32,037 nt of DNA from a virus: positions 1,972-34,008 of IMG/VR virus record IMGVR_UViG_3300000553_000161. One strand, written 5' to 3'. The number at the start of each line of letters is the position of its first letter. Position 1 is the stretch's first letter. Positions 1 to 27,662 of this stretch are shown here, piece after piece. The notes below the pieces were generated by a model that searched no databases, had not been told where the DNA came from, and saw only the letters and a list, made by a program, of their open reading frames with translations. The translations under genes and the position numbers were made by a program.

Positions 1-60
1 ATTAGTGGCGGTACAAAACAAGATGTTGATCAAAATTCTTTTGTTGGATTTAAACTTTGA
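1..60 (+). CDS. 3' end of an unidentified gene (partial)
   Basis: Reading from the first base gives an open frame ending in ...NSFVGFKL and a TGA at 58-60. The TGA overlaps a possible TTG start of the next gene (TTGA). Only 19 residues are visible, so no function can be given. Its position ahead of tail genes on the same strand suggests a structural gene, which is inference only. Confidence 0.45.
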   Translation: MSGGTKQDVDQNSFVGFKL

Positions 61-1169
61 TTTGGTTTATTCCAACATTAAAGGATGTAGCCGAATTTGC
101 TAAAGAAATTGGGTGTGACTGGATTGGCAATATTCCAGTCACACCTGATGCTAGTTGCGACGAAAATATCTGTCATACAAATGTAAAAAATTATATTCTA
201 AGTCATAATGGTGAGAAAATACTAGGATATTATTTCGTTGAAAGTGCTTGGGGGTATCAAGCTATATTACATAGTGTTTGGAAAGACGATAGCGGAAATT
301 TAATTGATATAACTCCTTTTTCCGACAAAAGAAAATTAAATGTATTTGCCAGTTTAAAAAATAATGAACAAATATATAAAACAAATAATATATATTCTCA
401 GTCTTTTACTAAATATAATCAGGAGACTGAGAATATGTATTATGTTTATGCTTTAATTGATCCTAGAAATGAAATGCCTTTTTATATTGGAAAAGGTACA
501 GGGAGAAGAGCAAAAACACATCTTTGGGAAGTACCAGAAACTAGAAATCAACATAAAGAAAATAAGATTGCTGCTATTAGATCTGCTGGATTAGAACCAA
601 GGATAGAATATCTTGCTGAAGATATAATAGATGAAGCATTTGCTTATAAAATGGAATCAGATCTAATTTTAAGATATGGTCGAAAAGGATATGAGAATTA
701 TGGCATTCTAACTAATATTTGTTTAGATGCTACTCCTCCAAATCATAAGGGTAAAACATATGATGAGATTTACGGAGTTGAGCAAGCTAAAATTGAAAGA
801 AAGAAAAGAGCAGATATACAAAAAGCTAGAGGCGGATATGGTCCAAAACAACACACAAACGAAACTAAGGAAAAAATAAGAAAAGCAAGTAGTGGTAAAA
901 ACAATGGCATGTATGGCCGAAAGCAATCATCTGAAACCATAGAGAAAATAAAAAATAATAGGAAATCAGTGTCGGGTGCAGAGCATCCCGAAAGTAAGCA
1001 TTGGAAAATCACATCTCCATATGGCGAAGTATTTGAACAAATTGGAAACCTTAAAGGATTTTGTGAAAAATTAGGTATTAGTTTTGCGACAATGTCTGCC
1101 GCACATAGAAATAATAGAATTCCTAAATTTGGAAAATCAAAAGGTTGGAAAATATCTAGCCTAGATTAA
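57..1169 (+). CDS. GIY-YIG homing endonuclease with NUMOD-type DNA-binding repeats
   Basis: Probable site-specific DNA endonuclease of a selfish free-standing homing gene. Residues about 127-225 form the GIY-YIG nuclease domain: YYVYALIDPR, then FYIGKGTGRR, with an acidic helix further on. A NUMOD3-like segment follows (about 262-300, HTNETKEKIRKASSGKNNG). The C-terminus (about 325-370) looks like a NUMOD1/IENR1 helix-turn-helix (YGEVFEQIGNLKGFCEKLG). Residues 1-126 are a separate region without a family I recognise. The frame opens at a TTG at 57, but a better start may be ATG 435: it has AGGAG at 421-425, nine bases upstream, and begins exactly at the nuclease domain. If so, 57-434 could be a leftover of a disrupted gene. 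It lies between a gene end and glutaredoxin, a usual place for phage homing genes. Confidence 0.85.
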   Translation: MIWFIPTLKDVAEFAKEIGCDWIGNIPVTPDASCDENICHTNVKNYILSHNGEKILGYYFVESAWGYQAILHSVWKDDSGNLIDITPFSDKRKLNVFASLKNNEQIYKTNNIYSQSFTKYNQETENMYYVYALIDPRNEMPFYIGKGTGRRAKTHLWEVPETRNQHKENKIAAIRSAGLEPRIEYLAEDIIDEAFAYKMESDLILRYGRKGYENYGILTNICLDATPPNHKGKTYDEIYGVEQAKIERKKRADIQKARGGYGPKQHTNETKEKIRKASSGKNNGMYGRKQSSETIEKIKNNRKSVSGAEHPESKHWKITSPYGEVFEQIGNLKGFCEKLGISFATMSAAHRNNRIPKFGKSKGWKISSLD

Positions 1170-3706: not shown

Positions 3707-6700
3707 GTGTCTAGATCAACTCCATCTCCGCAAAATGTGCCTGTTATTGCCCAAGCATTCCAGTCAACAGGAATGAATCCAACACAGGTTGCAGGGGCAA
3801 TAGGCAATGTTAAAGGCGAATCTTATTTTGATCCTACTGCAATTCTTAATGGTGATACAACACATGCAAGTCAAACCGCAGAATCTATAGGGGTTGATCC
3901 ATATGGATCTTATGGATTAATGCAATGGAATAGTTCTAGATATGATGCACTGATAGCGTATTCAAATAAAGTTGGCGATACTAGTTATCTTCCCTCAAAC
4001 GGAGGAAACGGCACTCCGTCATTGGCAACACAAGCTGGGTTCATAGCTAGTAAAGAAGATGGCACTGCTACTAGTACATATAACAATTATATTAATGATC
4101 CAAATTCGTCGATTTCTCCAACGGCAGCGTCCGACGTATTTGCTAAAAAAGTTGAAGGTACTGATTCTGGATATGATTTAAGAAGATCTGCTGCTGAACA
4201 GTATTCATCAACTGGCGCAGTACAAGGCGGCTCCGGCGGGTTGGCAATTCCGCCTGTTCTTGCATCACAAGGATATACTAAATCAGAAGTAGCGTCTGAT
4301 GGTAATACAGTCTATACCAAACCAGATGGTAGTTATGTAGAAGTTGACCCAGGTACAGGTAACTATTATGCATATGGTAAAGATGTAACATTACCCGATG
4401 GCACTGTATCTGCTAATCCTATTGTAAATGGGCAACCGGTATATAATCCAGACGGTACAGCTACAACAAATCCAAATACTAATCAACCGTATACCGCAGA
4501 TGAAGTTTCTCAGCTTGATGCAAATGGAAATTTGGGCAAAGTAACTCAAGATTCATTTACTTCTCCCCCTTCGGGTTCTAACGGGGATACAAGTTCAAAT
4601 CCAAGTACAGGTGGGGGCGGTGGCGGCTTAGGAGGCGCAGGAGCGGCAGCTGCTGGGACATCAATCCCAGCAGCAGGTTGTTTAGGCGGCGCAATGGGCT
4701 TGTCTGGACTACTAGCAGGTACAGGTATTGGACAAGCATTGGGCGGTTTGGGACAAGCTGCTGTTATGGGTGCTGTTCAAGGTGTACTCAGTGGTGGCGG
4801 AATTCAAGGAGCATTATCTGGCGCATTAGGTGGACTAGGCGGTGCAGTTGGTAATGCTTTAGGTGCATCATTAGGTGGCGCAGCAGGTACGTTAGGAAGT
4901 ACTTTAGGTGGTATTGCAGGGCAAGCAATTGGCGGATCATTAGGTATGATAGCTGCTGGAGCAAACCCAGTACAGGCATTGAGTTCCAGTGCATTTAATG
5001 CATTTATGTCAACAGGAGCAAACTTAATTCCAGGATTAAGTGGAGTTATGCCAGCTGGACTGGCACAAGCTGTAGTAGGCGGATTTGCAGGTGTATTAGG
5101 AGCTACTGCTGCTGGATATCCGTTAAGTGCGGCTGCAAGATTTGGTCTCGCAGGCGGACTTGGTGGGATGATTGCCACTGTTTCTAACAATATGACTGGT
5201 AACTTATCACTATCTGTAGGCATAGGTGCCGTAGCAACAGGTGCATTAAACGGAACATTGAATTTAACTGGCCAGCGAGCAGTAAATGGCAGCATTGATT
5301 TAGGTAGATATGCTACTCTAATTCAGATAGCAGCTGGTACTGCTGCTGGCAATAGAGTAATGGTTGGTGCAGTGAGCGAAGCAATGGCTTTACAATTTGG
5401 CAATGGCGTAGGCGGGCAAGGATCAGCAACTCGTAATATGCAAGATGCGATGACATTTAGTGTCACTACATTAGGACAGAATGTCAGTGCTATATCAACC
5501 GACATGATTGCAATGGGCAAGTGGGATGCAACTAATATGATGCGTTTTATGCAGCCCGGCAACATTATTGCTCAATTATTAAATTTTGGAATAGGCGATA
5601 TTATCGGCTTAACTGATATTATGTTAGCTAATCAGGTTCCTGTTGCAGGCATTGATAATCCAATTTATGATAGAGTTTCATTGGCTATGTTAACTGCAAT
5701 TACAGATCCTGCTGCTATTAGTGTTGTACAAACTGCATTTAATATGACAACACAAATTGCTAATCTAGGCGAGATATGTTTATTACAGAAAATGATGCCT
5801 ACTAGCTATAAAGGTATGCCTGTTAATAACTTTAGAGAAATGGGCGTTCATCTAGCAGTCATGGGTGTTAGCCAAGCAGCTACGGTTTATGATATTGGCG
5901 TTGCATTTAGCCAAGTTGAAACAGCAACAGATCTTAATAATATAAGTCAGTTGGCCCAACCTTTACCTGCTGCAATAGGAGCTAGCCTACTACAGACGTA
6001 TGGGTATGGCGGCGGCAGCTTAGGCGAACAAACTATGGCTGACATGATTGGTACCCCTGCAGGATATGTTCATGCAGATACTGCCCCAGTTATTGCTGCT
6101 TCTATTAAGTATATCCAAAATCATTCAGCAGCATCAACATTAGTGACTCTAATTACTTTGTTAAACAACTTAGCTAGTGGACAGTATACTGATCTAGGAA
6201 CAGTAGCTGATAGCACAGTAAGCCCACCGGTGCCGGGAGATAGTCCAAGTATCACTGTGCCATTCCCAAGTGGAAGTCAAATTTTCTATACGTTAGATGA
6301 TGCTGTGTTGGCATTTATTCCATTGATCGAAGCAGAACAGCAGAAGTTGTTGAATACGACAGATCCTATTTTGTTAGATATGATTAATAAGCTTAATTTA
6401 GCTTGGAGTGCAAGTTGTGCTCAGCTAGTAAGAGAAAACAATAACTTGTTAATGCATCAAATTGATATTTTCAATTTACCACCATCTACTCCAATGACTG
6501 GAATGGCCTTTGCACAATCATTAGATTATCTAGGCACACAAACAGGATATGGACAGCCTGCTGATTACGTCGAACGAGTATGTACTAATGACGTTTACGG
6601 TGATGCAATCAAATATACTATGCGTCAAGCTAGAAATGCACAGGCATTAGCGAACTTAGGTATTAATGTAGAAAAATATAAGTTACCTCAAAGCCAATAT

Positions 6701-7450
6701 TATAGAGAGCCTGAGAATTTCTATCAAGCTTTATATACTGGTAATTTACCTTCTACTCCACAGTTTCAAAAGACAATCGTATATCCTCGTACCCCAACTG
6801 ACACTTATATTGTTAACAGAGATCAAACCCTAATGGCCATGGGCTATTCAGAAATTCCATTGTTAAACAATCAAAAGGATGAGATCTACACTGACAGCTT
6901 ATGGATGAATACAAATCCAACAACTTTGGAAAATATTGGCCAAAGTATAGTAAAGAATGTTGTTACTAATAATATCGTAGTAAATTTTCCAGATTTGTTA
7001 ATTAAAGACAATAAAGGAAATCCTATTAAGTTTGGTGAGATTAAACCAAATGGTCTGTTATTAACTAACAATGATATATTTGTGACCACAATGTTGCAGT
7101 TAGTAAACAGGGCATTGTACGGCGGCATTGTTACGACAAAATATAATAATCCTTTCAATACCGATCAAATGGTATATGGAGTATTAGAGTTATTAGCACA
7201 AGTAAATGGATCTAATATTACCGGGTTAACAAACACAGTAACTGGCGGAATAGCAGCTAATTTACTTGATATAATACAACAGATATTTGCCCAAGGGGCA
7301 ATCGGCGCAATTCCTGGATTTAATGTCAATAATTTTGCGCCAGGACAAGGTAGCAGAAGCATGTTTGATACTGCAATGGATCGTAATGATCAAACAGTAT
7401 TTGGTAATAAAGGATTTGGCGGTTCAGGTCCTGCTTCAATACCTAAATAA
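3707..7450 (+). CDS. Giant tail-lysozyme fusion protein
   Basis: A 1247-residue virion protein. Residues about 12-130 match the phage tail lysozyme pattern: VAGAIGNVKGESYFDP with a probable catalytic Glu38, then YGSYGLMQWNSSRYDALI near 68-85. This domain cleaves peptidoglycan during genome entry. A Gly/Ala-rich, strongly hydrophobic segment spans about 300-520, beginning with a poly-Gly run and made of many GG-x-x-G repeats. It could insert into membranes or pack as helices. The remainder (about 520-1247) is mixed alpha with no family I recognise. The start is GTG 3707 with AGGA upstream. It follows PAAR-like and structural genes. It may be a baseplate hub or ejected protein rather than a tape measure, since extended coiled coil is lacking. 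Confidence 0.8.
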   Translation: MSRSTPSPQNVPVIAQAFQSTGMNPTQVAGAIGNVKGESYFDPTAILNGDTTHASQTAESIGVDPYGSYGLMQWNSSRYDALIAYSNKVGDTSYLPSNGGNGTPSLATQAGFIASKEDGTATSTYNNYINDPNSSISPTAASDVFAKKVEGTDSGYDLRRSAAEQYSSTGAVQGGSGGLAIPPVLASQGYTKSEVASDGNTVYTKPDGSYVEVDPGTGNYYAYGKDVTLPDGTVSANPIVNGQPVYNPDGTATTNPNTNQPYTADEVSQLDANGNLGKVTQDSFTSPPSGSNGDTSSNPSTGGGGGGLGGAGAAAAGTSIPAAGCLGGAMGLSGLLAGTGIGQALGGLGQAAVMGAVQGVLSGGGIQGALSGALGGLGGAVGNALGASLGGAAGTLGSTLGGIAGQAIGGSLGMIAAGANPVQALSSSAFNAFMSTGANLIPGLSGVMPAGLAQAVVGGFAGVLGATAAGYPLSAAARFGLAGGLGGMIATVSNNMTGNLSLSVGIGAVATGALNGTLNLTGQRAVNGSIDLGRYATLIQIAAGTAAGNRVMVGAVSEAMALQFGNGVGGQGSATRNMQDAMTFSVTTLGQNVSAISTDMIAMGKWDATNMMRFMQPGNIIAQLLNFGIGDIIGLTDIMLANQVPVAGIDNPIYDRVSLAMLTAITDPAAISVVQTAFNMTTQIANLGEICLLQKMMPTSYKGMPVNNFREMGVHLAVMGVSQAATVYDIGVAFSQVETATDLNNISQLAQPLPAAIGASLLQTYGYGGGSLGEQTMADMIGTPAGYVHADTAPVIAASIKYIQNHSAASTLVTLITLLNNLASGQYTDLGTVADSTVSPPVPGDSPSITVPFPSGSQIFYTLDDAVLAFIPLIEAEQQKLLNTTDPILLDMINKLNLAWSASCAQLVRENNNLLMHQIDIFNLPPSTPMTGMAFAQSLDYLGTQTGYGQPADYVERVCTNDVYGDAIKYTMRQARNAQALANLGINVEKYKLPQSQYYREPENFYQALYTGNLPSTPQFQKTIVYPRTPTDTYIVNRDQTLMAMGYSEIPLLNNQKDEIYTDSLWMNTNPTTLENIGQSIVKNVVTNNIVVNFPDLLIKDNKGNPIKFGEIKPNGLLLTNNDIFVTTMLQLVNRALYGGIVTTKYNNPFNTDQMVYGVLELLAQVNGSNITGLTNTVTGGIAANLLDIIQQIFAQGAIGAIPGFNVNNFAPGQGSRSMFDTAMDRNDQTVFGNKGFGGSGPASIPK

Positions 7451-7451
7451 T

Positions 7452-7482
7452 TTGACATTCTATGTTTAACCTGTTATAAATA
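7452..7482 (+). promoter_or_regulatory. Strong promoter of the tmRNA gene (sigma-70 plus T4-late core)
   Basis: TTGACA at 7452-7457, a 17-base spacer, then TATAAA at 7475-7480. The -10 is embedded in TATAAATA (7475-7482), the T4 late-promoter core. The predicted start near 7487 is just ahead of the tmRNA acceptor piece. The same element could serve host sigma-70 early and a gp55-type factor late. Confidence 0.8.
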
Positions 7483-7550
7483 ACATACTGTTGTTGATAG
7501 CAATGGAATATGGCGGCAAGACGGGAGTGCGAATCTCCCCGCCTCCACCA

Positions 7551-7621
7551 TAAGCACTAACGCATTAGCTGCACCAGAAATGCCGTATGCAGGGGAATGT
7601 AAGTCGAGTAGTGCTTATGAT
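7551..7621 (+). other. tmRNA intervening segment with processing hairpin
   Basis: The spacer between the mature acceptor end (CCA 7550) and the coding half (G7622). CATAAGCACTA at 7549-7559 is the exact reverse complement of TAGTGCTTATG at 7609-7619, so the precursor closes as an 11-bp stem directly beyond the acceptor stem. In known permuted tmRNAs this spacer is cut out by host RNases. A second small stem (CTGCA/TGCAG) can form within the loop. Confidence 0.8.
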
Positions 7622-7731
7622 GGGGGCGAAATAGGTTTCGATTGGTGCTGTAAAGATTGAAGTAGATAGTCGGGAAGGAACGACCGCTATCAAATTGATA
7701 GATCTGTCCAAACTCTATAAATGCAGCGAAA

Positions 7732-7779
7732 GCAGCAAATGACAACACTCCTTTTGAAGCAATGAAAATTGCCGCTTAA
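7732..7779 (+). other. tmRNA tag reading frame (AANDNTPFEAMKIAA)
   Basis: From GCA 7732 the frame reads AANDNTPFEAMKIAA and stops at TAA 7777-7779. The AANDN opening is like the Caulobacter tag as I remember it. The C-terminus is IAA instead of the usual LAA/VAA. An upstream in-frame GCA at 7723 would give an 18-residue tag beginning AAK; alignment with the known tag makes 7732 the likelier resume codon. Confidence 0.8.
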
Positions 7780-7791
7780 GGTTTAAAGTCT

Positions 7792-7826
7792 GCGGTCCGG
7801 GGAGAACCGTATTATCCAATCTCCCC
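7792..7826 (+). other. tmRNA 3' pseudoknot
   Basis: Stem 1: CGGT 7793-7796 with ACCG 7806-7809, extendable by a G-U pair. The loop bases GGGGAGA 7799-7805 are exactly complementary to TCTCCCC 7820-7826. This makes an H-type pseudoknot 13 bases after the tag stop codon, where PK2 lies in known tmRNAs. It overlaps the last codons of the antisense GIY-YIG gene. Confidence 0.75.
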
Positions 7827-8618
7827 ACTCTCATTTGGATAAGTCCAGTATCTACTACCATCCTCTCTTCTGGCAAGTTTCCTACCTTTTACTTTAGCTG
7901 ATAGTTTAGCAGCACTCTTTCTGCCGTTTTCTGCTGATGCTGAGTTTGGTAAACCTTTGTTCCATGCTGTTTGATTTTTCTTAAATCCTGGCACAGCAGT
8001 ACCGTTGTTCCATGCAATCTTGCCAGCACACGATAATGAGCAAGTTTTACGATCATTGATAGATGTGAATTCGCATTTACACGCTTTGCATATAAATGAA
8101 CGCAGTTGTTTCGATACTTTTAATCCTTTGTTTCGCATTGGCGTTTTTCTTATTTTTGATTTCTTTAGTGTTTGTATCTTTGGTTTGTCTACTATGAAAC
8201 ATAATAACCCTTGTTTACGCAATCTCATTTCTTCTTTGTCATATCCTTTATTCCATGCTGAATGCGATTTCCCCTTGTTCGCTGCCCCGTTACCGCCCGA
8301 TGATGTTTTCTTTACATTATAATAGCGACAAGAACCCTTTTGAACATTTTCGGATATCATTAATTCTGAATCTTTTATCTTATCTAACCATTTCTGTTCT
8401 AATATTCTTAAGTCTTTAGTAGTACCAATAGTATATTCTAGTACTTTAAAACGAAATGTAGTTGGTCTTATATTGTATGCTCTTTTCATAGGTTTATTCG
8501 AACAGATATAAGCATCATCTACTTTTCCATAATGCCCGCCTATATAAAAAAATTTTGATTTAGTATCATACCAGATATAAACATATCCTGTGTATTCAGA
8601 AGAATAAATATTATTCAT
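7812..8618 (-). CDS. GIY-YIG homing endonuclease next to the tmRNA
   Basis: A 268-residue homing-type nuclease. The GIY-YIG core opens at about residue 10 (GYVYIWYDTKSKFFYIGGHYG). A zinc-finger-like CKACKCEF ... CSLSC cluster lies near 185-205. Repeated AWNKG/AWNNG units (SAWNKGYDKE, IAWNNGTAVP, TAWNKGLPNS) are NUMOD-type DNA-binding modules. ATG 8618 is chosen because AAGGAG (8626-8631 on this strand) sits eight bases upstream; an in-frame ATG at 8675 would add 19 residues of unlike composition. The final codons and stop (7812-7814) lie inside the tmRNA 3' pseudoknot on the other strand, suggesting insertion beside or into the tmRNA gene. Its fold resembles the 30.9-31.5 kb copy (YIWYDT opening), so the two are probably related. 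Confidence 0.88.
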   Translation of the reverse strand: MNNIYSSEYTGYVYIWYDTKSKFFYIGGHYGKVDDAYICSNKPMKRAYNIRPTTFRFKVLEYTIGTTKDLRILEQKWLDKIKDSELMISENVQKGSCRYYNVKKTSSGGNGAANKGKSHSAWNKGYDKEEMRLRKQGLLCFIVDKPKIQTLKKSKIRKTPMRNKGLKVSKQLRSFICKACKCEFTSINDRKTCSLSCAGKIAWNNGTAVPGFKKNQTAWNKGLPNSASAENGRKSAAKLSAKVKGRKLARREDGSRYWTYPNESGEIG

Positions 8619-8687
8619 GCTGTTGCTCCTTCTAGCGATAGAGTCGATAGATGCTCGTAACATCGTGATCGACATTTTATTTAGTAT

Positions 8688-8748: not shown

Positions 8749-9282
8749 GTGGCAACCCTAGTTAAAACGGAGAGTGTATTGAATATTATAACAACGATGG
8801 CAGTTACAGCAACTATTGCTTTGGCAAGTTGTGCAACTGCAGAAGGAAAAATAGTAGTAAATGCAACTACTCAAGATCATAAGTGTTTAGCAGAAGCTAT
8901 CTACTATGAATCAGGCTCGGAGCCGCGAGCAGGTAAAATCGCTGTAGGCAATGTAATTGTAAATCGTGCCCGCAGTGGAATGTATCCATCAACAATCTGT
9001 AAAGTAATAACACATATTGATTCCAAAAAATGTCAATTTGGATGGGCTTGCCATGCACATAAAGAACCGCGTGGTAAACGATGGAATACTAGTCAAGAAA
9101 TTGCCACCCTAATACTGTCAGGGGAAACATCTGATCTAAGTCATGGCGCACTTAGTTTCCATAACATTAAACATAAATTTCATAATAAAAAGACAGTAGA
9201 AAGAACTGCTATTATTGGTCATCACGTATTTTGGCGACCTAAGCAGTTAAAAGCGGACAACCGCCAAGGAGAACTAAAATGA
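8749..9282 (+). CDS. SleB-like cell wall hydrolase (Hydrolase_2), exported, possible lipoprotein
   Basis: Probable peptidoglycan hydrolase. Residues 46-165 match the SleB/CwlJ (Hydrolase_2) family: CLAEAIYYESGSEPRAGKIA with the probable catalytic Glu54, then VGNVIVNRARSGMYP, CQFGWACHAH and HGALSFHNI. The N-terminus has a hydrophobic segment (about 11-27) ending in LASC, a lipobox, so it may be an outer-membrane lipoprotein or a signal-peptide endolysin. It starts at GTG 8749, 11 bases after GAGGAG; the GTG lies in the loop of a CTAGGG/CCCTAG hairpin (8742-8761). It overlaps the next gene by ATGA, so the two hydrolases are coupled and probably act together at lysis. Confidence 0.85.
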   Translation: MATLVKTESVLNIITTMAVTATIALASCATAEGKIVVNATTQDHKCLAEAIYYESGSEPRAGKIAVGNVIVNRARSGMYPSTICKVITHIDSKKCQFGWACHAHKEPRGKRWNTSQEIATLILSGETSDLSHGALSFHNIKHKFHNKKTVERTAIIGHHVFWRPKQLKADNRQGELK

Positions 9283-13040: not shown

Positions 13041-13101
13041 GTAGCAGTGCTAAATGATTAGGCTGCTACATATATCTTGCTTTTAAAGGAGATAAATTAT
13101 G
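13041..13101 (+). promoter_or_regulatory. Candidate ROSE-like RNA thermometer in the hsp20 leader
   Basis: Two stacked hairpins cover the leader. The first is a perfect 7-bp stem, GTAGCAG 13041-13047 with CTGCTAC 13063-13069. The second puts the ribosome-binding site in a weak helix: CTTGCT 13076-13081 against AGGAG 13087-13091, with G13079 unpaired and a 5-base loop. A UUGCU stretch with a bulged G facing the Shine-Dalgarno sequence is the hallmark of ROSE thermometers of alphaproteobacterial small heat-shock genes. The gene downstream is hsp20. Confidence 0.65.
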
Positions 13102-13569
13102 AACGCAAGAACTTTTGATCTAACTCCCTTTCACCGTGCAACTATTGGTTTCGAACAGCTTTTTAATGAGTTGGATCGATCCTTTGCAAACTCAGTGAAC
13201 CAGGGTTACCCTCCCTACAACATCATTAAGAGTGATGAAGATCATTATAATATTGAGTTAGCAGTTGCCGGATTCAGTATGGATGAACTATCAATTACAC
13301 TTGACAAGGATCAATTGATTATTGAAGGTCATCCAACCTTTAAGGAATTTTCAGATGAAGAGCATGTTGAGTGGAAGAATGGAGAAGATCCAAGACATTT
13401 CCTACACAAGGGAATAGCTAATCGCACCTTCATTCGCACATTCAAGATTGCTGAACATATGGAAGTGACAGGTGCTGATCTAGAATTAGGCATTCTAAAG
13501 ATTACTTTGGAACGTAATGTTCCTGAGGAACTACAGCCTAAGAAGATTGCTATTACATATAAATCCTAA
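13099..13569 (+). CDS. hsp20: Small heat-shock protein Hsp20 (alpha-crystallin)
   Basis: ATP-independent holdase that binds unfolding proteins; T4-like phages of aquatic bacteria often carry one, possibly to help virion assembly or host stress. It has 156 residues, with an IbpA-like start (RTFDLTPFHRATIGFEQLFN) and the alpha-crystallin domain at about 36-138: YNIELAVAGFSMDELSITL, then ANRTFIRTFKIAEHMEV, GADLELGILKITLER. The GIL within the last strand is the conserved A-x-x-x-x-G-[IV]-L signature. A short C-terminal tail ends KKIAITYKS, containing the I-x-I motif used in oligomer assembly. AGGAG lies eight bases before the ATG. A 10-bp hairpin separates it from clpS. Confidence 0.93.
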   Translation: MNARTFDLTPFHRATIGFEQLFNELDRSFANSVNQGYPPYNIIKSDEDHYNIELAVAGFSMDELSITLDKDQLIIEGHPTFKEFSDEEHVEWKNGEDPRHFLHKGIANRTFIRTFKIAEHMEVTGADLELGILKITLERNVPEELQPKKIAITYKS

Positions 13570-13620: not shown

Positions 13621-13938
13621 ATGGGTAAAATGTCATCAGATTTTGAAACAAAGAAAAAAGTAGCGATTAGATTGGATATTGCTCCACCTTCGCAATTTAA
13701 AGTTATATTCATTAATGATAATGTTACTACTGTAGACTTTGTTTGTACTGCATTAATGACATTCTTTGGATATAATCAAGAAGGTGCGGCAGCACTTACA
13801 GTTCGTATTCATGATGAAGGAATGGCAATTGTGGCGATAATGCCATATGAACTAGCTGAGCAAAAAGCATTAGAAGTTACTGCAATTGCTCGCAGTAATG
13901 GGTTCCCTCTTAATATTAAAATTGAACCTAACCATTAA
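13621..13938 (+). CDS. clpS: ClpS-like N-degron adaptor
   Basis: Adaptor that delivers proteins with destabilising N-terminal residues to the ClpAP protease. The 105-residue length and the pattern PPSQFKVIFINDNVTTVDFV ... FFGYNQEGAAAL ... RIHDEGMAIVAI match ClpS throughout. By alignment to E. coli ClpS from memory, the alpha-amine-binding Asn34, Asp35 and His66 are kept (IND, IHDEG), Asp36 is Asn, and the pocket-gating Met40 is Val (TTVDF for TPMEF). This might widen the accepted N-terminal residues. Two starts are possible: ATG 13621 (after TTGAG) or ATG 13630. No clpA is in the window, so it would use the host protease. The end overlaps the convergent phosphoesterase gene by 11 bases. Confidence 0.88.
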   Translation: MGKMSSDFETKKKVAIRLDIAPPSQFKVIFINDNVTTVDFVCTALMTFFGYNQEGAAALTVRIHDEGMAIVAIMPYELAEQKALEVTAIARSNGFPLNIKIEPNH

Positions 13939-19059: not shown

Positions 19060-19154
19060 CATGGCTACTTGCTCCTTATCATATTTGGAAATATAAAAGA
19101 GCTCGTCGCAAGATATTACAAGAATTACGAAACAAGGATCCATTTATCTACTGA
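19044..19154 (+). CDS. Small basic amphipathic protein, 36 residues
   Basis: A short gene, MAGFIAWLLAPYHIWKYKRA then RRKILQELRNKDPFIY. The hydrophobic start (GFIAWLLAPY) followed by a basic helix suggests membrane-surface association. GGAGG at 19033-19037 sits six bases upstream, a strong binding site. It overlaps the fibre gene by 16 bases and the carbamoyltransferase start by TGATG. Both junctions favour a real gene. Function unknown. Confidence 0.75.
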   Translation: MAGFIAWLLAPYHIWKYKRARRKILQELRNKDPFIY

Positions 19155-20608
19155 TGATATTAGGTATTAATGCTCTCAACCATGATGCAAGTATATGCCT
19201 CGTTAAAGGTAACGATATAAGATTTGCCGGACATTCTGAACGATATAGTCGTCGAAAGAATGACAAAAATTTAGATCATAAACTATTAGATGATTGTTTT
19301 AATTATGGAACACCAACTGAAATAGTTTGGTTTGAAAAGCCATTTAGCAAAGCAATGCGTCGATGGTATTCAGGCGAAACTCCTATATTTCAAAATACAA
19401 AAAAGTATCTTAAAGAAAACAGTTTAAATCATTTACCAATTACATATGTTCCTCATCATGCTGCCCATGCTGCAATGGGATTCTATACCAGTAAGTTTCC
19501 TAATGCTACTATTATAGTTGTTGATGCAATTGGAGAATGGGATACTACTAGTATTTGGTCAGCTGATAGTAAGGGATTAAAATGCATCTTTAGAACAACA
19601 TATCCTAATAGTATGGGATTGTTCTATAGTGCTGCCACGGAAGCTATTGGTCTCAAACCCAATGAAGAAGAATATATTCTGATGGGAATGGCTGCATATG
19701 GTAAGCCAACATACACAAAATTATTGAAAGATAAGTTATTCAAAATTTGGGATGGTCCCAGATCTAAACTAAGATATAATCTACATCGTGGGATGAAACC
19801 ATGGATTACTATACATCCCGATGATTACATAAACTTTGCTGCCAGTGTTCAGCAGATATTTAAAGAGTATATGATTAGTTTGTGTGCATATGCTCAAGTT
19901 CATATTCCCAGTAAGAATTTAATTATTACTGGCGGCGGCGCACTTAATTGTGCAGTCAATGGTGAAATTGATCAGTTAAAAGCATTTGATCGTATTTGGA
20001 TTCCACCTAACCCAGGTGATGCAGGATTAAGTTTGGGAGCAATAGCTTATCATACTAAGCAGGCTGTTAATTTAGATCATGCCTACCTAGGGCACGACAT
20101 TAAGAAACATGTTGATATTCGCAGTGTAATTGATTACCTTCATCAAGGACAAGTAATTGCTGTTGCCAGCGGCCGTGCAGAATTTGGCCCAAGAGCATTA
20201 GGTAATCGCAGTATATTAGCAGATCCGCGTTGTATTAACATTAAAGATCAAGTTAATGCTGTTAAAAAGCGTGAACCATTTAGACCATTTGCTCCTGCTA
20301 TATTAGCTGAACATGCAGATGAATATTTTGAATTGAATCATAATTGTTATGATTATATGCAGTTTGCAGTTAAATGTCGTCGTCCTGATCTATTTCCTGC
20401 TATTATACATGAAGACGGAACCAGTCGGGTGCAAACGGTAAACAAAGATAATCCTAGTATACTACGTCCAATATTAGAAGCATGGTATGAAAAAACTGGA
20501 TGTCCAATGCTATTGAATACAAGTATGAACATTAAAGGCGAGCCGTTAGTTAATACTGTGTGGGATGCCAGAATGTTTAGCTTATCAAATAAGGTACCTG
20601 TATTTTGA
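19154..20608 (+). CDS. NodU/TobZ-family carbamoyltransferase
   Basis: Transfers a carbamoyl group, activated as carbamoyl-AMP, to a hydroxyl of a sugar or similar acceptor. The 484-residue protein shows the N-terminal domain (LGINALNHDASICLVK, SERYSRRK), the metal-binding HHAAHA motif (PHHAAHAAMGFY, about 99-110), NSMGLFYSAATEAIG, GGGALNCAVN and the C-terminal YrdC-like signature FGPRALGNRSILADPR, REPFRPFAPAIL, LLNTSMNIKGEP. It is shorter than the usual 550-600, ending soon after the last motif. Its start overlaps the 36-residue gene and its stop overlaps the SGNH gene (TTGA), so all three are coupled. The acceptor substrate is unknown; phage glycan or DNA-sugar modification is possible. Confidence 0.9.
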   Translation: MILGINALNHDASICLVKGNDIRFAGHSERYSRRKNDKNLDHKLLDDCFNYGTPTEIVWFEKPFSKAMRRWYSGETPIFQNTKKYLKENSLNHLPITYVPHHAAHAAMGFYTSKFPNATIIVVDAIGEWDTTSIWSADSKGLKCIFRTTYPNSMGLFYSAATEAIGLKPNEEEYILMGMAAYGKPTYTKLLKDKLFKIWDGPRSKLRYNLHRGMKPWITIHPDDYINFAASVQQIFKEYMISLCAYAQVHIPSKNLIITGGGALNCAVNGEIDQLKAFDRIWIPPNPGDAGLSLGAIAYHTKQAVNLDHAYLGHDIKKHVDIRSVIDYLHQGQVIAVASGRAEFGPRALGNRSILADPRCINIKDQVNAVKKREPFRPFAPAILAEHADEYFELNHNCYDYMQFAVKCRRPDLFPAIIHEDGTSRVQTVNKDNPSILRPILEAWYEKTGCPMLLNTSMNIKGEPLVNTVWDARMFSLSNKVPVF

Positions 20609-21312
20609 CAACAATAACTATAGTTGGCGATAGTTTTACACAGTATTATGAAGGAACATATCTAGAGAAGATATGTAAATCTTTAAATTTAGAAGTATTA
20701 GACCATGTAGGATTTCCAGGTGGCGATCAGTACAAAATTTATGCTCGATTTTTAACTCAACTTGAAAAAAATCCTGACATAATGTTTTGTTGTTATACAG
20801 GATTTGATAGACTTTATCATCCAAAATTTTCAATTCAACGATTATTTGATCCAGTTACATATAAATTTTTAAAAGTGTTCACATTAAAATCTAAAGAAGA
20901 ACAATCACCTGAATTTCAAACGGTAATGAATGCTGCTCAACAATATTACGAACACCTGTATGATCATTGTTATATGAAAACTATGCAAAAATTAATGGTA
21001 GTTGACATGCAGAAAAAATGTAAAGAACGTAATATCAAAATGATTAATTTACCAGCATTTGATTCAAGTTTTTTTGAAAAAACACATGGGCTATGGTGTA
21101 TTTCTGAACCTAAAGGATTAATGAATCTTAGTAAATTAGATGATTCATCGTGGCAAGCACATACAAGCGATAAGAGAAAAAATCATTTCACTGACAGCGG
21201 GCATGACATATTAGCGAAAGAATTAATTCCTCATATCGAACGATTAATTAACTCGGGACCTGAAGAATTCTTAGGATTTACTTTTCTTTACCCACATCAT
21301 TTTAAATCTTGA
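20605..21312 (+). CDS. SGNH/GDSL-like hydrolase
   Basis: A 235-residue protein with the family start TITIVGDSFT: block I GDS with the nucleophile Ser10. Block V is seen as FTDSGHDILA (Asp and His near 195-200). Block II/III residues are not clear (VGFPGGDQY may supply Gly). Such enzymes act as esterases or acyltransferases on sugars, lipids or peptides. The start is TTG 20605, overlapping the carbamoyltransferase stop (TTGA), so expression depends on coupling. Linked to the carbamoyltransferase, it may edit the same modified sugar. The 3' end overlaps the convergent radical SAM gene by 16 bases. Confidence 0.75.
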   Translation: MTTITIVGDSFTQYYEGTYLEKICKSLNLEVLDHVGFPGGDQYKIYARFLTQLEKNPDIMFCCYTGFDRLYHPKFSIQRLFDPVTYKFLKVFTLKSKEEQSPEFQTVMNAAQQYYEHLYDHCYMKTMQKLMVVDMQKKCKERNIKMINLPAFDSSFFEKTHGLWCISEPKGLMNLSKLDDSSWQAHTSDKRKNHFTDSGHDILAKELIPHIERLINSGPEEFLGFTFLYPHHFKS

Positions 21313-22994
21313 GATTTCATTAATTTCTTCATTAAACTTAATGGATGTTCAACAGTGTTATTTTTACTAAAGAGCCCATATGAATTTCCTAATGTCATCT
21401 TTTTATAATTTTCAATTAATTGACGATTTTTTGTTTTGAAAAGTTCTCTATTGTCGTAGTTAATACTTTTACGAGCTCTCATATCAGCAATATATTGATC
21501 TACTCCTCCAGGCAACAGATTATGCATTATTGGTATTGCAAATATACCTCGCATTGCTGACATTGCTTCTTCGGGTGTAATAGATTTATTATTAAAATCG
21601 CTGTATTTGATAGCAAGTTCTAAATAATCTTCATATTTTCCCCAAGGGCTAGTCCACCCTGTCCCCCAATATTTTTCTTTACCTTCAGCTAATACATAAT
21701 CTCTGAAAGGATCATTTCTGGCTTGATTAATTTCAGTTCGATCGTTAATTCCCGGCTCAATGAATAATGGAGTAAAGATAAAATGATCTAATAGATTTTT
21801 ACCTTCAGCCGACAGCAACCATTCATATGTTTGTTTTAGTTCTTCTTTTGTTTCAGTTGGTGCACCTGCAATATACGAACCACTAGTAAGTGCAGTATCA
21901 CCTAAAACATCTCTAAAATTATAAAGTAGATCTTTAATTTTTTCTCCATCAGTCATTTTTCCTATATACGGACCAACTTCTTTTTTCATTGATTCAATAC
22001 CAAAAATTACGCCTGCACAGCCGGCATCTTTAAACATCTGAGCTTGCTCGCGTGTTTTTATAGTATCTAATCGTGCATAAGCACCCCATCTAACATCAAT
22101 GCCAGTTTCTTCTCTGATGCGTATTAGGTATTTTAATTTCTCAGGATAATCATTGATCATATGATCGACGAACATATAAACTCTGACACCAAAGTTTTCA
22201 TAATTACTTACTATTTCATTCTTAACACTTTCATATGTCCTACAATATTCATGCGGTCGTTTACCTAATGCACTGTAAGTACAAAAGCTACAACTAAAAA
22301 TACATCCATCTGCAATTTGTGATATTAATGCTTCATTGGGGGAGATGTTATCTCCAATATCAGTTTTAAATCCAAAATCGCTATAATCTTTAACCGGGCC
22401 TGTAATTACAATCTTAGAATCTCTAATTTTTCCTTTAATTGTTTTATGCGGCAAATAACCAGTACGACAAAATTCACCAATTACTGCAGGGTTTGGCCCC
22501 ATAACATAATAATCAATGAACAAATTTAACGCATCTAACCCCCACGCTCTAATATCTTTAGGATCAATGAACTTATAATCTCGAATATCAAAGCCACCCA
22601 TTATTACTGGAAACTTATATTTCTTAGCAAGTGTGCCCAATGTCATTAGAAAATTAAATGTTCGTTTACCCCAAAAATCTCCAAGATCTGGAATAGTACG
22701 TTTGGTTTCTTCAGCATGAAACGCATAATCTAATCTATTAACACTAGTTATAAAGCTACTACTAATACAGATTAGTACAGGTTGACCTTGACTGAAATCA
22801 TTTAAAATATGTTCCAATTCTTCATTATTAAATGAAGTGCAATGATGTACTTGTTTTACTTCGAACCCTTCTTGCCTCATTGCATAAGTTAATCGAAGCA
22901 AAGCAGACGATTTGAGGAAGATATAATCTAGATTCCACATATCATCAAAATCTTTGCCTGCGTGATCGCCAAAGAATATTATTTTTTTGATCAT
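21297..22994 (-). CDS. Radical SAM enzyme with B12-binding-like N-terminus
   Basis: A 565-residue protein. The radical SAM cluster CIFSCSFC supplies Cys231, Cys235 and Cys238 (C-x3-C-x2-C). Later motifs include VYMFVDHMIND, RWGAYARLD and GVIFGIES, expected for the TIM barrel. The first 200 residues are Rossmann-like (MRQEGFEVKQVHHC, PVLICISSS, FPVIMGGFDIRDY), as in B12-binding radical SAM proteins. No clear DxHxxG cobalamin motif was seen, so cobalamin use is uncertain. It is the last gene of a minus-strand operon; its ATG overlaps the TctC-type stop by four bases. The product is unknown: methylation, C-C bond formation or thiolation are possible. Confidence 0.85.
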   Translation of the reverse strand: MIKKIIFFGDHAGKDFDDMWNLDYIFLKSSALLRLTYAMRQEGFEVKQVHHCTSFNNEELEHILNDFSQGQPVLICISSSFITSVNRLDYAFHAEETKRTIPDLGDFWGKRTFNFLMTLGTLAKKYKFPVIMGGFDIRDYKFIDPKDIRAWGLDALNLFIDYYVMGPNPAVIGEFCRTGYLPHKTIKGKIRDSKIVITGPVKDYSDFGFKTDIGDNISPNEALISQIADGCIFSCSFCTYSALGKRPHEYCRTYESVKNEIVSNYENFGVRVYMFVDHMINDYPEKLKYLIRIREETGIDVRWGAYARLDTIKTREQAQMFKDAGCAGVIFGIESMKKEVGPYIGKMTDGEKIKDLLYNFRDVLGDTALTSGSYIAGAPTETKEELKQTYEWLLSAEGKNLLDHFIFTPLFIEPGINDRTEINQARNDPFRDYVLAEGKEKYWGTGWTSPWGKYEDYLELAIKYSDFNNKSITPEEAMSAMRGIFAIPIMHNLLPGGVDQYIADMRARKSINYDNRELFKTKNRQLIENYKKMTLGNSYGLFSKNNTVEHPLSLMKKLMKSQDLK

Positions 22995-23926
22995 TTAAAA
23001 GTTAATGCTTCGCTATATTTAGATACAAGGCTTCTCTCTTTTAATATCTGCGTTTTAATACGTATATCGTCAGTGTCACATGCTGTTGTATACCAAGTTG
23101 GTAAACTGTTTAGGAAATCATTGAAATCTGTTAAACATACTTTAAACACTATATCTTTAATTTCATTTGCAAGAGCTTGATTTTCCTTAGGAGTATATAA
23201 CAAGCCCAAAGATGAAAATTGAAAGTCAGGAATATTTACATCTACTCCATTTGGCACATCAGGAAATTTATAATGTCTATTTTTTAGACTAGTAACCAAT
23301 GCTTTTGAATCAGTTACATCATCTTGATTTTGAACAGTATAATCAGTTTCGCCGGTTAACATCGACTTAGAAATTTCAGTCGCTGTATTGTAGTTTATGG
23401 TCTCTACATTTTTAATACCAAACTTATCTAAAAATGCTTGATTGTTGATCTTATGCAAATTCGACTGTAGTGTACTAGCTGTAAACACTTTGTCCTTGCT
23501 CTTTAGTAAAGCTACAAGTTCTTCAATTGAGTTGATTTTTGAACTTTTTGGTACAACAATATTTGAACTTGTAGTTAATATAGAAGACACAAAAACAAAA
23601 TCATTATCTCTATCGTATGAGTTAGGAAACTGTAAGCCATTTAATGAGAAATTTGAAGTTGTACCCCATACTAACACACGCTCCTTAGCTCGGGCAGCAA
23701 CCAATGCACGTTGATCAGCAATCTCTCCGCCTGCTCCTGCTAATACAGTATAAACAAACTCATACTTTGTTTGTGCAGTATTAAGCATTGAAGTAAATTT
23801 CATTCCTGAAATTCCAATGGTGCTTGTAAGAGGAAATCTACTATAAATGTTTACTTTTGCAGTTTCTGCATGTACAGCGGTTGCTGTTAACATTAAGCCT
23901 AAGGCAACTGATGTTATTCTACCCAT
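22991..23926 (-). CDS. TctC/Bug-type periplasmic solute-binding protein
   Basis: A 311-residue protein with a signal peptide (MGRITSVALGLMLTATAVHA, cleavage before AETAKV). Residues 25-305 follow the TctC (tripartite tricarboxylate transporter receptor, 'Bug') pattern: VNIYSRFPLTSTIGISGMKF, AGAGGEIADQRALVAAR, FVSSILTTSSNIVVPKSSKI, SIEELVALLKSKDK. The usual PGGG near the N-terminus is replaced, so ligand specificity may differ. TctC proteins bind carboxylates and hand them to TctAB; no such transporter is here. It overlaps both neighbours (13 and 4 bases). An auxiliary metabolic gene, or a periplasmic binder of the cluster's product, are both possible. Confidence 0.75.
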   Translation of the reverse strand: MGRITSVALGLMLTATAVHAETAKVNIYSRFPLTSTIGISGMKFTSMLNTAQTKYEFVYTVLAGAGGEIADQRALVAARAKERVLVWGTTSNFSLNGLQFPNSYDRDNDFVFVSSILTTSSNIVVPKSSKINSIEELVALLKSKDKVFTASTLQSNLHKINNQAFLDKFGIKNVETINYNTATEISKSMLTGETDYTVQNQDDVTDSKALVTSLKNRHYKFPDVPNGVDVNIPDFQFSSLGLLYTPKENQALANEIKDIVFKVCLTDFNDFLNSLPTWYTTACDTDDIRIKTQILKERSLVSKYSEALTFK

Positions 23927-25125
23927 TTGATGTTCATCTTTCCTATTGAATATCTTTTAGTTAAAAATGTTTTAACAAATTGAAATTTATTTTGAATCAA
24001 CGCATATTTATTGAGGTAATAATCTATAGCCTCAGTTCGAACTTGATGTCCGTGATGATTTCCAATCACACGTTTAATTAGATAAGCATCTGGCTCAATT
24101 AAATGTGAAGTTGGTTTTGGAGCAGCAAATACTGTGGGATCCCAGTCTGGATATATGATATGATTTACCATACGTTCGCTTGTATGCACAGAGCTATATC
24201 CTGCTTGCTTTTTTAACTCATGTTTAAAAAGTTTTACTTGTCTTTCAAAAAATAGTTCGTAAAAATCTTTATTTGTTTCTAAAACACGTTTAATCATATG
24301 ACTTTGTTTAATAGGAATTAACGGAAAATCTCTAGACCAAAAAAACAGCTCGCTGACTAAATCGTCAGGTGTTTGCTTTCTTCTAACATTTTCTAATTCT
24401 CGCATAGTCATGTCATTGAAATTAAAATATAGGCTTTCTTTATTCTTAAGGTCCAACGACAATATTGGCTTTTCAAATCCTTTAACAATACAGGCATTAC
24501 GTGTAGGATTTTTTACCTGAGAGTTATACTTTAATAGTGCATAACTATACATTCGCGGAATACTAAGGTATAATCGTTGACTACCATTATGAAACTTATC
24601 ATCTTCAAGACCCAACGACCCAAATGATTTCTTGTAATTTTCAATTGCATCAGCACTGATATCAATCGTTGTAATTTTTGTATTTGGACTAATTTTTGCC
24701 ACTTTCTTTAAGATTGGTAATGCAGCGTAATCATACTCTAGATACTCACTGACCATATCATCCTTAAGCATTGCGGTATGATCCATTTTACTAACAATAT
24801 CATTGTAATTGACAATCTGAATTTCATCAATGAAGATATTGTTCTTTAAGAAAGTCCATAAAATTTGAGTCGAGTCGCTACCGCCACTAAAGCTTAAAAT
24901 AACATAGTTATACTTGTCTCTAATCTGCTGAGCTCTCATTTTATAAAGAGTTGATATATCTGACTCGGGTTCAATTTCCCAATTAATATTATCAAATACA
25001 TCCTCATTAAAATGAAATGTGATCGACGAATTATAATCTTTGTTAAGCAGCATATCGTCAAATGCTGCTGCTCTAGATAGATATACTTTATCGTTATAAA
25101 AATAGTGCCCTTGTCTTAAGTACAT
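23914..25125 (-). CDS. PP-loop ATP pyrophosphatase (SGGxDS)
   Basis: A 403-residue protein. The PP-loop FSGGSDSTQ at residues 79-87 follows a beta strand (YNYVILSF), as in enzymes that adenylate a carboxyl or carbonyl group (asparagine synthase C-domain, QueC, ThiI, GMP synthetase). A downstream acidic DISADAIENY and an Arg/Lys-rich stretch may contact ATP. It is longer than stand-alone QueC (about 230) and lacks a glutamine-amidotransferase domain, so it resembles an asparagine-synthetase-like adenylating module. It uses ATG 25125 with AAGG upstream. It starts eight bases after the HxD gene and overlaps the TctC-type gene by 13 bases. Activation of an acid in a biosynthetic step is inferred. 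Confidence 0.75.
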   Translation of the reverse strand: MYLRQGHYFYNDKVYLSRAAAFDDMLLNKDYNSSITFHFNEDVFDNINWEIEPESDISTLYKMRAQQIRDKYNYVILSFSGGSDSTQILWTFLKNNIFIDEIQIVNYNDIVSKMDHTAMLKDDMVSEYLEYDYAALPILKKVAKISPNTKITTIDISADAIENYKKSFGSLGLEDDKFHNGSQRLYLSIPRMYSYALLKYNSQVKNPTRNACIVKGFEKPILSLDLKNKESLYFNFNDMTMRELENVRRKQTPDDLVSELFFWSRDFPLIPIKQSHMIKRVLETNKDFYELFFERQVKLFKHELKKQAGYSSVHTSERMVNHIIYPDWDPTVFAAPKPTSHLIEPDAYLIKRVIGNHHGHQVRTEAIDYYLNKYALIQNKFQFVKTFLTKRYSIGKMNIKWVE

Positions 25126-25133
25126 GATAACCT

Positions 25134-25610
25134 TTACTTGGTAATATTTTTTGGACCAAAACTTAATAAAGGCGTTACTGTTAACGCAACTCTAGGATGA
25201 TTTGGATCAATTCCTTCTACGCCATGATAACGTTCTACTACTAAACTATGCCAAGTTTTAGCAGGCAAATGTTCAGACTCTATTAGAATTTTATTTTCGT
25301 CATATACTGATGTTATAACATTTGGACCGCCGGTGTCAATAATATAGTTGTAGGCAATACGTCTATCGCCAGGAAAAGCAGGGTTATCTTTGTGTATGGG
25401 TATGCCAGCATATATCACTTGATATTTTGCATAAAACTTACCTTTGATATTATTATTAAGCCAGTCTAATAGATCTTGTCGTACGGGTTTATATTGAAAT
25501 GTGTCAAAATCTTTAACTAACATATTTTCACAAGGTTTGTTAATTATATCATTGACACTTTCTAATAGATGGTCAGGAACTGATGGGAAATTCAAATATT
25601 TAATGTACAT
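25134..25610 (-). CDS. HxD-motif Fe/2OG oxygenase-like or cupin-like protein (short)
   Basis: A 158-residue protein from ATG 25610; an in-frame GTG at 25622 would add four residues. A HKD motif (73-75, GIPIHKDNP) follows a beta strand, and a later His121 (TWHSLVVER) plus Arg140 (HPRVALTVTPL) give the HxD...H...R order of Fe(II)/2-oxoglutarate oxygenases. The ATG lies inside the last codons of the preceding gene, so translation is coupled. Substrate unknown; it probably acts with the neighbouring oxygenase-like protein and the PP-loop enzyme. Confidence 0.65.
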   Translation of the reverse strand: MYIKYLNFPSVPDHLLESVNDIINKPCENMLVKDFDTFQYKPVRQDLLDWLNNNIKGKFYAKYQVIYAGIPIHKDNPAFPGDRRIAYNYIIDTGGPNVITSVYDENKILIESEHLPAKTWHSLVVERYHGVEGIDPNHPRVALTVTPLLSFGPKNITK

Positions 25611-26430
25611 GAAGATAATCACTTATAGTAGTAATCGTGTCTATTACAGTTTCTTTTTTATACTTTGCAATGCTTTTTTCTAATAGATCCACGTACTGAT
25701 TAATTTCTTTTGCAGTCTTAGGTTCTTCTCTTACAATAAAAAGTATCTTACGATAAGCATTAGTAGGATGTTTTAAATATACACTTTTATGTTTAGTTCT
25801 CAGATTATTCCAAGCAAAACTATTAGTGTCACTTAGAATAGGCAATGAAAATTTATGATCAACTTCTTTGTCAACGGGATCTAAAATTAAGCTAAGTGTT
25901 TCAAATGGATTAGTATCAACTAGTTTAATTCGTATAGCAGTGGGAGCATCTATCATACTTGTTAAATCCCTGTGTAAAGGCACATTTGCTCTGCTGCTCC
26001 ACATGCTCCATCTAAAGTCTTTTCCGCCAACAAATGGCATATAATCATGTATCTGTTCAAATAATTCAGGAAACTCGATATACGCTTCGGGACAAGGATT
26101 AGTTGTAAACGAGCCACCTGTCCAATTTGGACTTACACTATTAATGGATAGATATGAATTAGCAGGATCAATACTGTTTACTTTGGATGAAAAATCTGAG
26201 ATTCTTTTGGATATGGATCCAGCCTGTGTAAAGAAAAAGTTAACAAATCGTTCGATATCATTGGGTAATATATTGGGAATATCAAAAGGAACAAACAGAT
26301 ACTTGCCGAATGATCTTTCTAAATCCAAATATAATTCTCTATCCAAAAATTCTAATTCTTGAGCTCGCATATTTGTAAAATTTTCTTTAGTTTCGGATAT
26401 CATGTTATATTTAAACAACTCGATTGACAT
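25600..26430 (-). CDS. HxD-motif oxygenase-like protein (long)
   Basis: A 276-residue protein. H153-R-D155 (NVPLHRDLTS) lies after WSMWSSRANV. His214 or His221 and Arg227 (NAYRKILFIVREE) follow, the expected order for an Fe(II)/2-oxoglutarate oxygenase of the aspartyl/prolyl hydroxylase or JmjC-like type. It may also be a metal-free relative. The ATG at 26430 is chosen; an in-frame TTG at 26433 is less likely. It is the first gene of the minus-strand operon. Its start region overlaps the uvdE promoter, so RNA polymerase on the two strands may compete. Confidence 0.65.
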   Translation of the reverse strand: MSIELFKYNMISETKENFTNMRAQELEFLDRELYLDLERSFGKYLFVPFDIPNILPNDIERFVNFFFTQAGSISKRISDFSSKVNSIDPANSYLSINSVSPNWTGGSFTTNPCPEAYIEFPELFEQIHDYMPFVGGKDFRWSMWSSRANVPLHRDLTSMIDAPTAIRIKLVDTNPFETLSLILDPVDKEVDHKFSLPILSDTNSFAWNNLRTKHKSVYLKHPTNAYRKILFIVREEPKTAKEINQYVDLLEKSIAKYKKETVIDTITTISDYLHVH

Positions 26431-26451
26431 CAATTGAATTTATGCTATTAT
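26424..26451 (+). promoter_or_regulatory. Sigma-70 promoter of uvdE, leaderless
   Basis: TTGACA at 26424-26429, a 16-base spacer and TATTAT at 26446-26451. The expected transcription start falls on A26458 of the uvdE ATG. No ribosome-binding site precedes it. Its spacing matches the 14723 promoter. Confidence 0.75.
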
Positions 26452-26457
26452 CATAAT

Positions 26458-27495
26458 ATGACACAACGTATCGGCTTTTGCTGCAAATGGATTGATGGTC
26501 CCTCTCAGATTAATGGGATCAATCAAAAAGACACTGCCAAAGAGTTCAACACTGGTACCACAACTGTTGCTTGGCTTAAGCGTCAAACAACTGCTGTTGC
26601 TGAACAGAAGTTATGGGATCTAATGGTAGCTAACCTAGATTCGGTATATAAACTAGTAAAGAAAGTTGGAGCTTTAGATGAGCATTTTAGAATGGTTCGA
26701 ATTAGCAGCGATGTGCTGCCTGTATATACAGAGCCAAATTTTGGGTATTTTTATAATCAACCAGGGGTACGAAGCTATGCTGAAAGAAAATTCAGCGAAA
26801 TTGGGAGAATGGCTAGACTTCATAACGTGCGTCTCAGTTTTCATCCTGGGCAGTTTTGCGTTTTGGCAAGTGATAATGACGATGTTGTTCGCAGGTCTAT
26901 AGAGGAGTTTGAATATCATGTTGACATGGCACGTTGGATGGGCTACGGACGAGAATGGCATGAGCACGGGTTCAAAATCAACGTACACATTGCTGGACGT
27001 CGGGGCCCTGCCGGAATTGTCGCTGCTTTGGGTCGTCTTAGCCCTGAGGCTAGGAATCTTATAACTATCGAAAACGAAGAAAATGCGTGGGGATTAGATG
27101 AGTGTCTTACTATTGGACGTGATGTTGCTATCGTTTTGGATGTACATCACCATTGGGTCAATACGGGAGAGTACATTTGTGCCACTGACGATAAGGTCAA
27201 ACAGATTGAATCTAGTTGGCGCGGTGTTAGGCCTACTCTACATTATAGTTGTAGCCGTGAGGATATATTGGGACATCATGATCCTGTTGTAATGCCTGAT
27301 ATGTTTGATCTACTAGACAATGGTTATAAGAAGCAGAAGTTGCGAGCACATAGTAACTTCATGTGGAATCAAGCTGTTAATATGTATGTTAGCGAATTTT
27401 GGCCTATGTTTGATATCCAAGTTGAAGCTAAGGCTAAAAATCTAGCCAGCTTTGCATTGTATGAAGAAATTAAAAATTATGCTAATCCAGCTTGA
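26458..27495 (+). CDS. uvdE: UV damage endonuclease UvdE
   Basis: Nicks DNA 5' of UV photoproducts, starting an excision repair path separate from UvrABC. The 345-residue TIM-barrel protein carries the family's metal ligands in order: RISSDVLPV, LSFHPGQFCVL (His), EEFEYHVDMA, IENEENAWG (Glu), DVHHHWVN (Asp, His), LHYSCSRED (His). ATG 26458 is chosen over the earlier in-frame ATG at 26434 because the promoter -10 ends at 26451, putting the transcription start on this codon and giving the family start MTQRIGFCCKW. It overlaps the next small gene by 17 bases. Sunlit-water phages benefit from repairing their own damaged DNA. Confidence 0.92.
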   Translation: MTQRIGFCCKWIDGPSQINGINQKDTAKEFNTGTTTVAWLKRQTTAVAEQKLWDLMVANLDSVYKLVKKVGALDEHFRMVRISSDVLPVYTEPNFGYFYNQPGVRSYAERKFSEIGRMARLHNVRLSFHPGQFCVLASDNDDVVRRSIEEFEYHVDMARWMGYGREWHEHGFKINVHIAGRRGPAGIVAALGRLSPEARNLITIENEENAWGLDECLTIGRDVAIVLDVHHHWVNTGEYICATDDKVKQIESSWRGVRPTLHYSCSREDILGHHDPVVMPDMFDLLDNGYKKQKLRAHSNFMWNQAVNMYVSEFWPMFDIQVEAKAKNLASFALYEEIKNYANPA

Positions 27496-27634: not shown

Positions 27635-27662
27635 TTAATTTTACCAAAATATTAAATTTATG

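Follow-up and report, generated by a model that had tools for sequence, protein, structure and literature searches.

The RNA known as tmRNA releases ribosomes that have become stuck and attaches a tag to their broken proteins. In a survey of 18,146 phage genomes, 402 had a tmRNA, and of the 133 unique tmRNA structures 53 were two-piece, mostly from marine or aquatic phages (PMC9004378). Here we describe a locus of a freshwater phage, in a DNA of 32,037 nucleotides (IMG/VR record IMGVR_UViG_3300000553_000161, positions 1,972 to 34,008), the whole of which we call the window, that resembles those of Methylophilales phage Melnitz, Pelagibacter phage Mosig and their relatives, in each case a permuted alpha-type tmRNA of an aquatic tailed phage (PMC9004378). 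Melnitz, however, has a glutamine riboswitch and a tmRNA upstream of the late-transcription coactivator (PMC9004378), whereas the tmRNA of the window has a tail lysozyme gene on one side and a cell wall hydrolase gene on the other, encodes a tag ending AMKIAA, and has a nuclease gene at its 3′ end. With the permuted tmRNAs of alphaproteobacteria (RF01849, RF04321) it shares the order of the parts, the acceptor stem, the T-arm, a spacer closed by a hairpin and the 3′ pseudoknot, but it is borne by a phage, and its tag, which ends KIAA, has extra codons after the resume codon.

The nuclease gene has precedents of its own. Among the Seg endonucleases of phage T4, SegB lies in the tRNA cluster and SegG at gene 32; these are free-standing GIY-YIG genes beside their presumed targets, and they move by intronless homing with co-conversion (PMC2988022). 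The window gene is likewise free-standing; its neighbour is instead a tmRNA gene, it sits at the exact 3′ end with an antisense overlap, and its cutting is predicted. Homing endonucleases have also been associated with tmRNA genes before, namely LAGLIDADG enzymes within group I introns, where the nuclease lies inside a self-splicing intron in the T-loop (PMC11915505). In the window we see no intron, the nuclease is of a different family, and the insertion falls outside the mature RNA. Our reading, to which we give a probability of about 0.8, is that comparison among relatives points to a functional phage permuted tmRNA joined by a free-standing GIY-YIG homing endonuclease, of a family whose members sit at the 3′ end of such genes.

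The permuted tmRNA

Positions 7487 to about 7829 on the plus strand encode a circularly permuted two-piece tmRNA. The Rfam covariance models RF04321 (tmRNA_permuted; 91 bits, E 1.6e-16) and RF01849 (alpha_tmRNA; 73 bits, E 2.7e-18) both matched above their gathering scores within 7434-7829, and ARAGORN independently called a permuted tmRNA with the tag AAKAANDNTPFEAMKIAA. A first-pass annotation had proposed such an RNA at 7487-7830 and had named the Rfam tmRNA models, alpha_tmRNA among them, as a check; the two models, ARAGORN and the covariation given below all bear it out, and its end at 7830 fits, being a few bases beyond the 3′ hairpin, which ends at 7826.

By ARAGORN and the covariance models, the 3′ acceptor piece is encoded upstream of the 5′ coding piece. 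The former (7487-7550, plus strand; ARAGORN, Rfam and covariation) comprises one strand of the long helix, a T-arm with a 5-bp stem and a 7-nt loop, the acceptor 3′ strand CGCCTCC (7540-7546), A73 and an encoded CCA that ends at 7550. It is followed by a spacer, presumably removed, at 7551-7621 (plus strand; sequence, folding and comparison), which is closed by an 11-bp hairpin (7549-7559 with 7609-7619) that was read from the sequence and folded computationally. The coding piece (7622-7829, plus strand, its 3′ end a probable one; ARAGORN, Rfam and covariation) begins with the acceptor 5′ strand GGGGGCG (7622-7628), which completes a 7-bp stem with a G3-U70 pair, and continues through a D-like region to the tag frame at 7723-7779 (plus strand; ARAGORN and comparison), whose resume codon is probably GCA and whose product has a hydrophobic end followed directly by the stop. 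A PK1-like fold at 7669-7715 is plausible. The 3′ pseudoknot at 7792-7826 (plus strand) pairs GCGGT with ACCGT (7792-7796/7806-7810) and GGGGAGA with TCTCCCC (7799-7805/7820-7826). The acceptor stem with its G3-U70, A73 and CCA, the T-arm, the tag frame and the spacer hairpin are thus all where the annotation had placed them, and the 3′ pseudoknot is real, covarying over 18 phage homologues. What it overstated was the rarity of a permuted tmRNA in a phage, since Melnitz and dozens of further phages are already on record as having one (PMC9004378) and RF04321 covers the form; the window tmRNA is a further example of them.

Isolated phages yielded similar matches: an unannotated permuted tmRNA in Caulobacter phage CcrRogue (NC_019408; 88 bits, at 2487-2805 of locus L136), a relative of phiCbK, and one in Rhizobium phage RHph_I1_18 (15520-15713, 60 bits). 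As a separate observation, the 71-nt spacer at 7551-7621 is identical letter for letter in two homologues (L097 and L100) whose tRNA-like heads differ strongly, so spacers seem, from these sequences, to have been exchanged between phages.

Gene neighbourhood

Upstream of the tmRNA, homology identifies a phage tail lysozyme or tape-measure-like protein (3707-7450, plus strand), and downstream a cell wall hydrolase (Hydrolase_2; 8749-9282, plus strand). Both neighbours recur in two nuclease-free relatives, L003, whose tail protein is 53% identical, and G012, in both of which the hydrolase directly follows the tmRNA, so that the position of the tmRNA between homologous neighbours is kept in three phages. 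The tail protein had no match among reference phages, and neither the exact T-arm DNA nor the nuclease protein was found in GTDB genomes. The phage had been described as T4-like: the window contig shows no gp23, the T4 capsid protein, which is present in four tmRNA-bearing relatives, and one tmRNA-bearing relative has neighbours resembling a helicase loader and a single-strand-binding protein (gp59- and gp32-like). The window also contains two further homing-endonuclease-like genes with NUMOD3 motifs (57-1169, plus strand; 30894-31709, minus strand) and, at 19154-30901, an accessory cluster with a carbamoyltransferase, a radical SAM protein, a UvdE-like endonuclease and a sugar-nucleotide dehydratase/epimerase.

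Conservation as an RNA

The structure covaries strongly among phage homologues (n = 25). Across these 25, a standard pair is present in 87% of cells for the 27 tRNA-like pairs, both sides have changed in 143 cells of the tRNA-like helices against a shuffled mean of 47, and G3-U70 is invariant (25/25). The 3′ pseudoknot, compared over 18 homologues with both tail types, is 90% paired, with 55 two-sided changes against 21 in the controls; covariation was judged against shuffles and slides. Because the acceptor stems of the head alignment were picked for being complementary, with a minimum of 6 of 7 pairs, the 100% acceptor pairing is partly by construction, while the compensatory changes are not; the script left 4 of 34 homologues unplaced. 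Loss of acceptor pairing in related phages would have spoken against the RNA, and the nearby case of L003 goes the other way: its permuted tmRNA occupies the same place with a different stem, GGGAGTG/CACTTCC, which still pairs 7/7. That the tmRNA might be a decaying copy of a host gene, acquired by chance, would suit the divergence of tag and spacer, but we consider it very improbable given the covariation, the conservation of G3-U70 and of open tags, and the position kept in three phages. Comparative evidence says, rather, that the tmRNA is maintained as an RNA in phages.

Expression and function

A near-consensus sigma70-type promoter, recognised in the sequence and its homologues, lies at 7452-7482 (plus strand), with TTGACA at 7452-7457, a gap of 17 nt and TATAAA at 7475-7480; the -10 element doubles as a T4 late-promoter box, TATAAATA, at 7475-7482, and the promoter ends 5 nt ahead of the first tmRNA pair. 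Exact TATAAATA occurs within 60 nt upstream in 19 of 30 homologues, with its first base 11 to 17 nt ahead of where the alignment starts, and we infer that the tmRNA is expressed from this promoter. Host RNA polymerase would start at the first base pairs of the tmRNA gene, host tRNA-processing enzymes would cut out the hairpin-closed spacer, and the two resulting pieces would stay joined through the acceptor stem and the long helix. Host AlaRS could then charge the RNA through G3-U70, and SmpB of the host would deliver it to stalled ribosomes, where the tag ending AMKIAA would be added. A SmpB gene was not found in the window contig or in 18 further phage records (19 in total, among them the CcrRogue genome, which is complete, and two contigs of about 145-151 kb), so host SmpB is presumably needed.

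It is plausible that the phage tmRNA rescues ribosomes and tags proteins with a peptide of its own. We think it unlikely, at long odds, that instead of working as a tmRNA it is a decoy for, or an inhibitor of, the host's trans-translation. The absence of SmpB from the phage records and the presence of a ClpS gene 6 kb away would fit an inhibitor, and a tag-less form from phage DS6A, expressed in E. coli, does inhibit the tmRNA of the host (PMC11915505), but the window RNA and its relatives have kept a full tag frame, CCA, G3-U70 and the pseudoknot under selection. The ClpS adaptor gene itself (13621-13938, plus strand; Pfam, 82 bits) follows an HSP20 gene (13099-13569, plus strand), and a second ClpS occurs in one tmRNA-bearing relative (G016) and in none of 17 others tested. 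In bacteria, ClpS modulates ClpAP.

The nuclease gene at the tmRNA 3′ end

The first-pass annotation read the RNA features well and overlooked a gene that overlaps the 3′ end of the tmRNA, an overlap we think more interesting than the tmRNA itself. This gene (7812-8675, minus strand, 287 aa), convergent with the tmRNA, has its stop and final codons inside the 3′ hairpin, antisense to the tmRNA. Homology, motifs, fold and dN/dS all bear on its identity. Its relatives share the motifs GYVYIW and YIGGH together with an invariant E93 and N120, and a conserved glutamate and asparagine are typical of GIY-YIG nucleases. The best fold matches of the structural model are to the I-TevI catalytic domain (probability 1.00, with a weak best E of 0.029); the model has a mean pLDDT of 51.7, fair in the core only and poor elsewhere. 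The Pfam GIY-YIG model matches just 4 of 13 family members, and marginally (best E 0.0017). From motifs and model together, the protein has a GIY-YIG catalytic domain and may be described as homing-endonuclease-like. Values of dN/dS among the homologues range from 0.03 to 0.16, and the family is under purifying selection; several copies have decayed.

A search with the nuclease protein alone returned 39 loci or contigs, and a permuted tmRNA is present on 34 of them: the window phage (nuclease locus L033, its tmRNA seen as L002), its nearest relative (L034, record G022) and 32 of the 37 others. In all 34 pairs the two genes are convergent and the nuclease touches the tmRNA 3′ end. Among the pairs measured, the distance of its stop from that of the tag ranges from -25 to +143 nt and is often, as in the window, exactly 32; this range excludes L034, a frame-shifted copy with its frame broken near the start, which was read by hand. 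The five relatives without a tmRNA are L058, on a contig cut off partway through the nuclease gene, and four weak matches, L064-L066 (38%) and L071 (43%). Many of the contigs are near-duplicates and most have one gp59-gp32-like neighbourhood in common; the pair is nonetheless present in several unlike gene neighbourhoods. An intended control, the second GIY-YIG gene at 30894-31709, had just three relatives, and the two records tested held no tmRNA, too few to use.

This could instead be an ordinary phage permuted tmRNA beside a nuclease gene parked in a tolerated intergenic gap and not targeting the tmRNA. Permuted tmRNAs are already known from phages (PMC9004378), free-standing nuclease genes are common in them, and the 44% nuclease relatives in Sinorhizobium phages are in records without a permuted tmRNA. 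A permuted tmRNA is found in only about 0.3% of phage genomes (PMC9004378), however, and adjoins 34 of 39 nuclease relatives in several unlike neighbourhoods, so we regard mere parking as unlikely and favour a nuclease family that occupies tmRNA 3′ ends. A search of the open-access literature found no paper that connects permuted tmRNA with homing endonucleases of the free-standing kind, and a nuclease family recurring next to phage tmRNA genes looks undescribed.

Occupied and empty alleles

When permuted tmRNAs were gathered first, regardless of the nuclease, most lacked it, and occupancy is therefore polymorphic; one of them (L081) keeps a remnant of the nuclease C-terminus, read by eye. The insertion site is exact: an occupied allele, L160, and an empty one, L168, are identical at 68 of 69 positions through the tag end and the 3′ pseudoknot; past it, L160 has a nuclease cassette of about 0.5 kb, after which the two are again nearly identical for some 50 bases. 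In this pair the nuclease gene is a clean insertion of about 0.5 kb at the tmRNA 3′ end. It falls just after the pseudoknot, so the tmRNA is left whole, and the nuclease takes its final codons, such as SEPVI and the stop, from the strand antisense to the tmRNA hairpin. The window and G012 form a second occupied and empty pair, with an exchange of the 3′ half.

The most likely way for the nuclease gene to spread is that, in mixed infections, its product cuts tmRNA alleles that lack it and the gene is copied into them with flanking sequence. Homing of this kind would also account for the window phage having a foreign tag and 3′ half. G012 is its closest empty relative, collinear on both sides, and their tRNA-like heads are 97-98% identical, whereas the tags and 3′ ends differ (tail identity 52%, the background level); L076 and L095 likewise have similar heads and differing tails. 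Tails of the AMK class form a single clade on tails (91/91), while a single clade on heads is rejected (AU test, p 1.3e-5). This mismatch and the conflict of clades fit a 3′ half that moves together with the nuclease gene. On these alignments it is possible, though we advance it tentatively and would not bet on it, that a nuclease family specialised on the phage tmRNA 3′ end drives tmRNAs through phage populations, swapping the recipient's tag and pseudoknot by co-conversion.

We also considered whether every copy of the nuclease gene brings along an AMK-type tag and 3′ end of its own, and rejected this, as an independent scan by pattern turned up AMK tails on more than 20 contigs with no detected nuclease; the tail swap may therefore be ordinary recombination. 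The nearest relative of the window nuclease (L034, 66%) adjoins a tmRNA with the other tail type. On the far side of the nuclease gene, consensus patterns picked up no remnant of an original, displaced 3′ end, bar one match at +957 in L079. The tag class itself, ending AMKIAA or AMKVAA with extra codons after the resume codon, is widespread, occurring in 50 viral contigs (L144-L192).

Implications

A mobile element tied to tmRNA in many lineages would offer a reason for the spread of tmRNA other than benefit to the phage, and could likewise account for its patchwork of tags and spacers. The pair of occupied and empty alleles allows a direct test of homing, and phiCbK-like Caulobacter phages may provide a laboratory system for phage trans-translation. 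If the co-conversion proposal were true, a selfish element would be editing the ribosome-rescue RNA of the phage.
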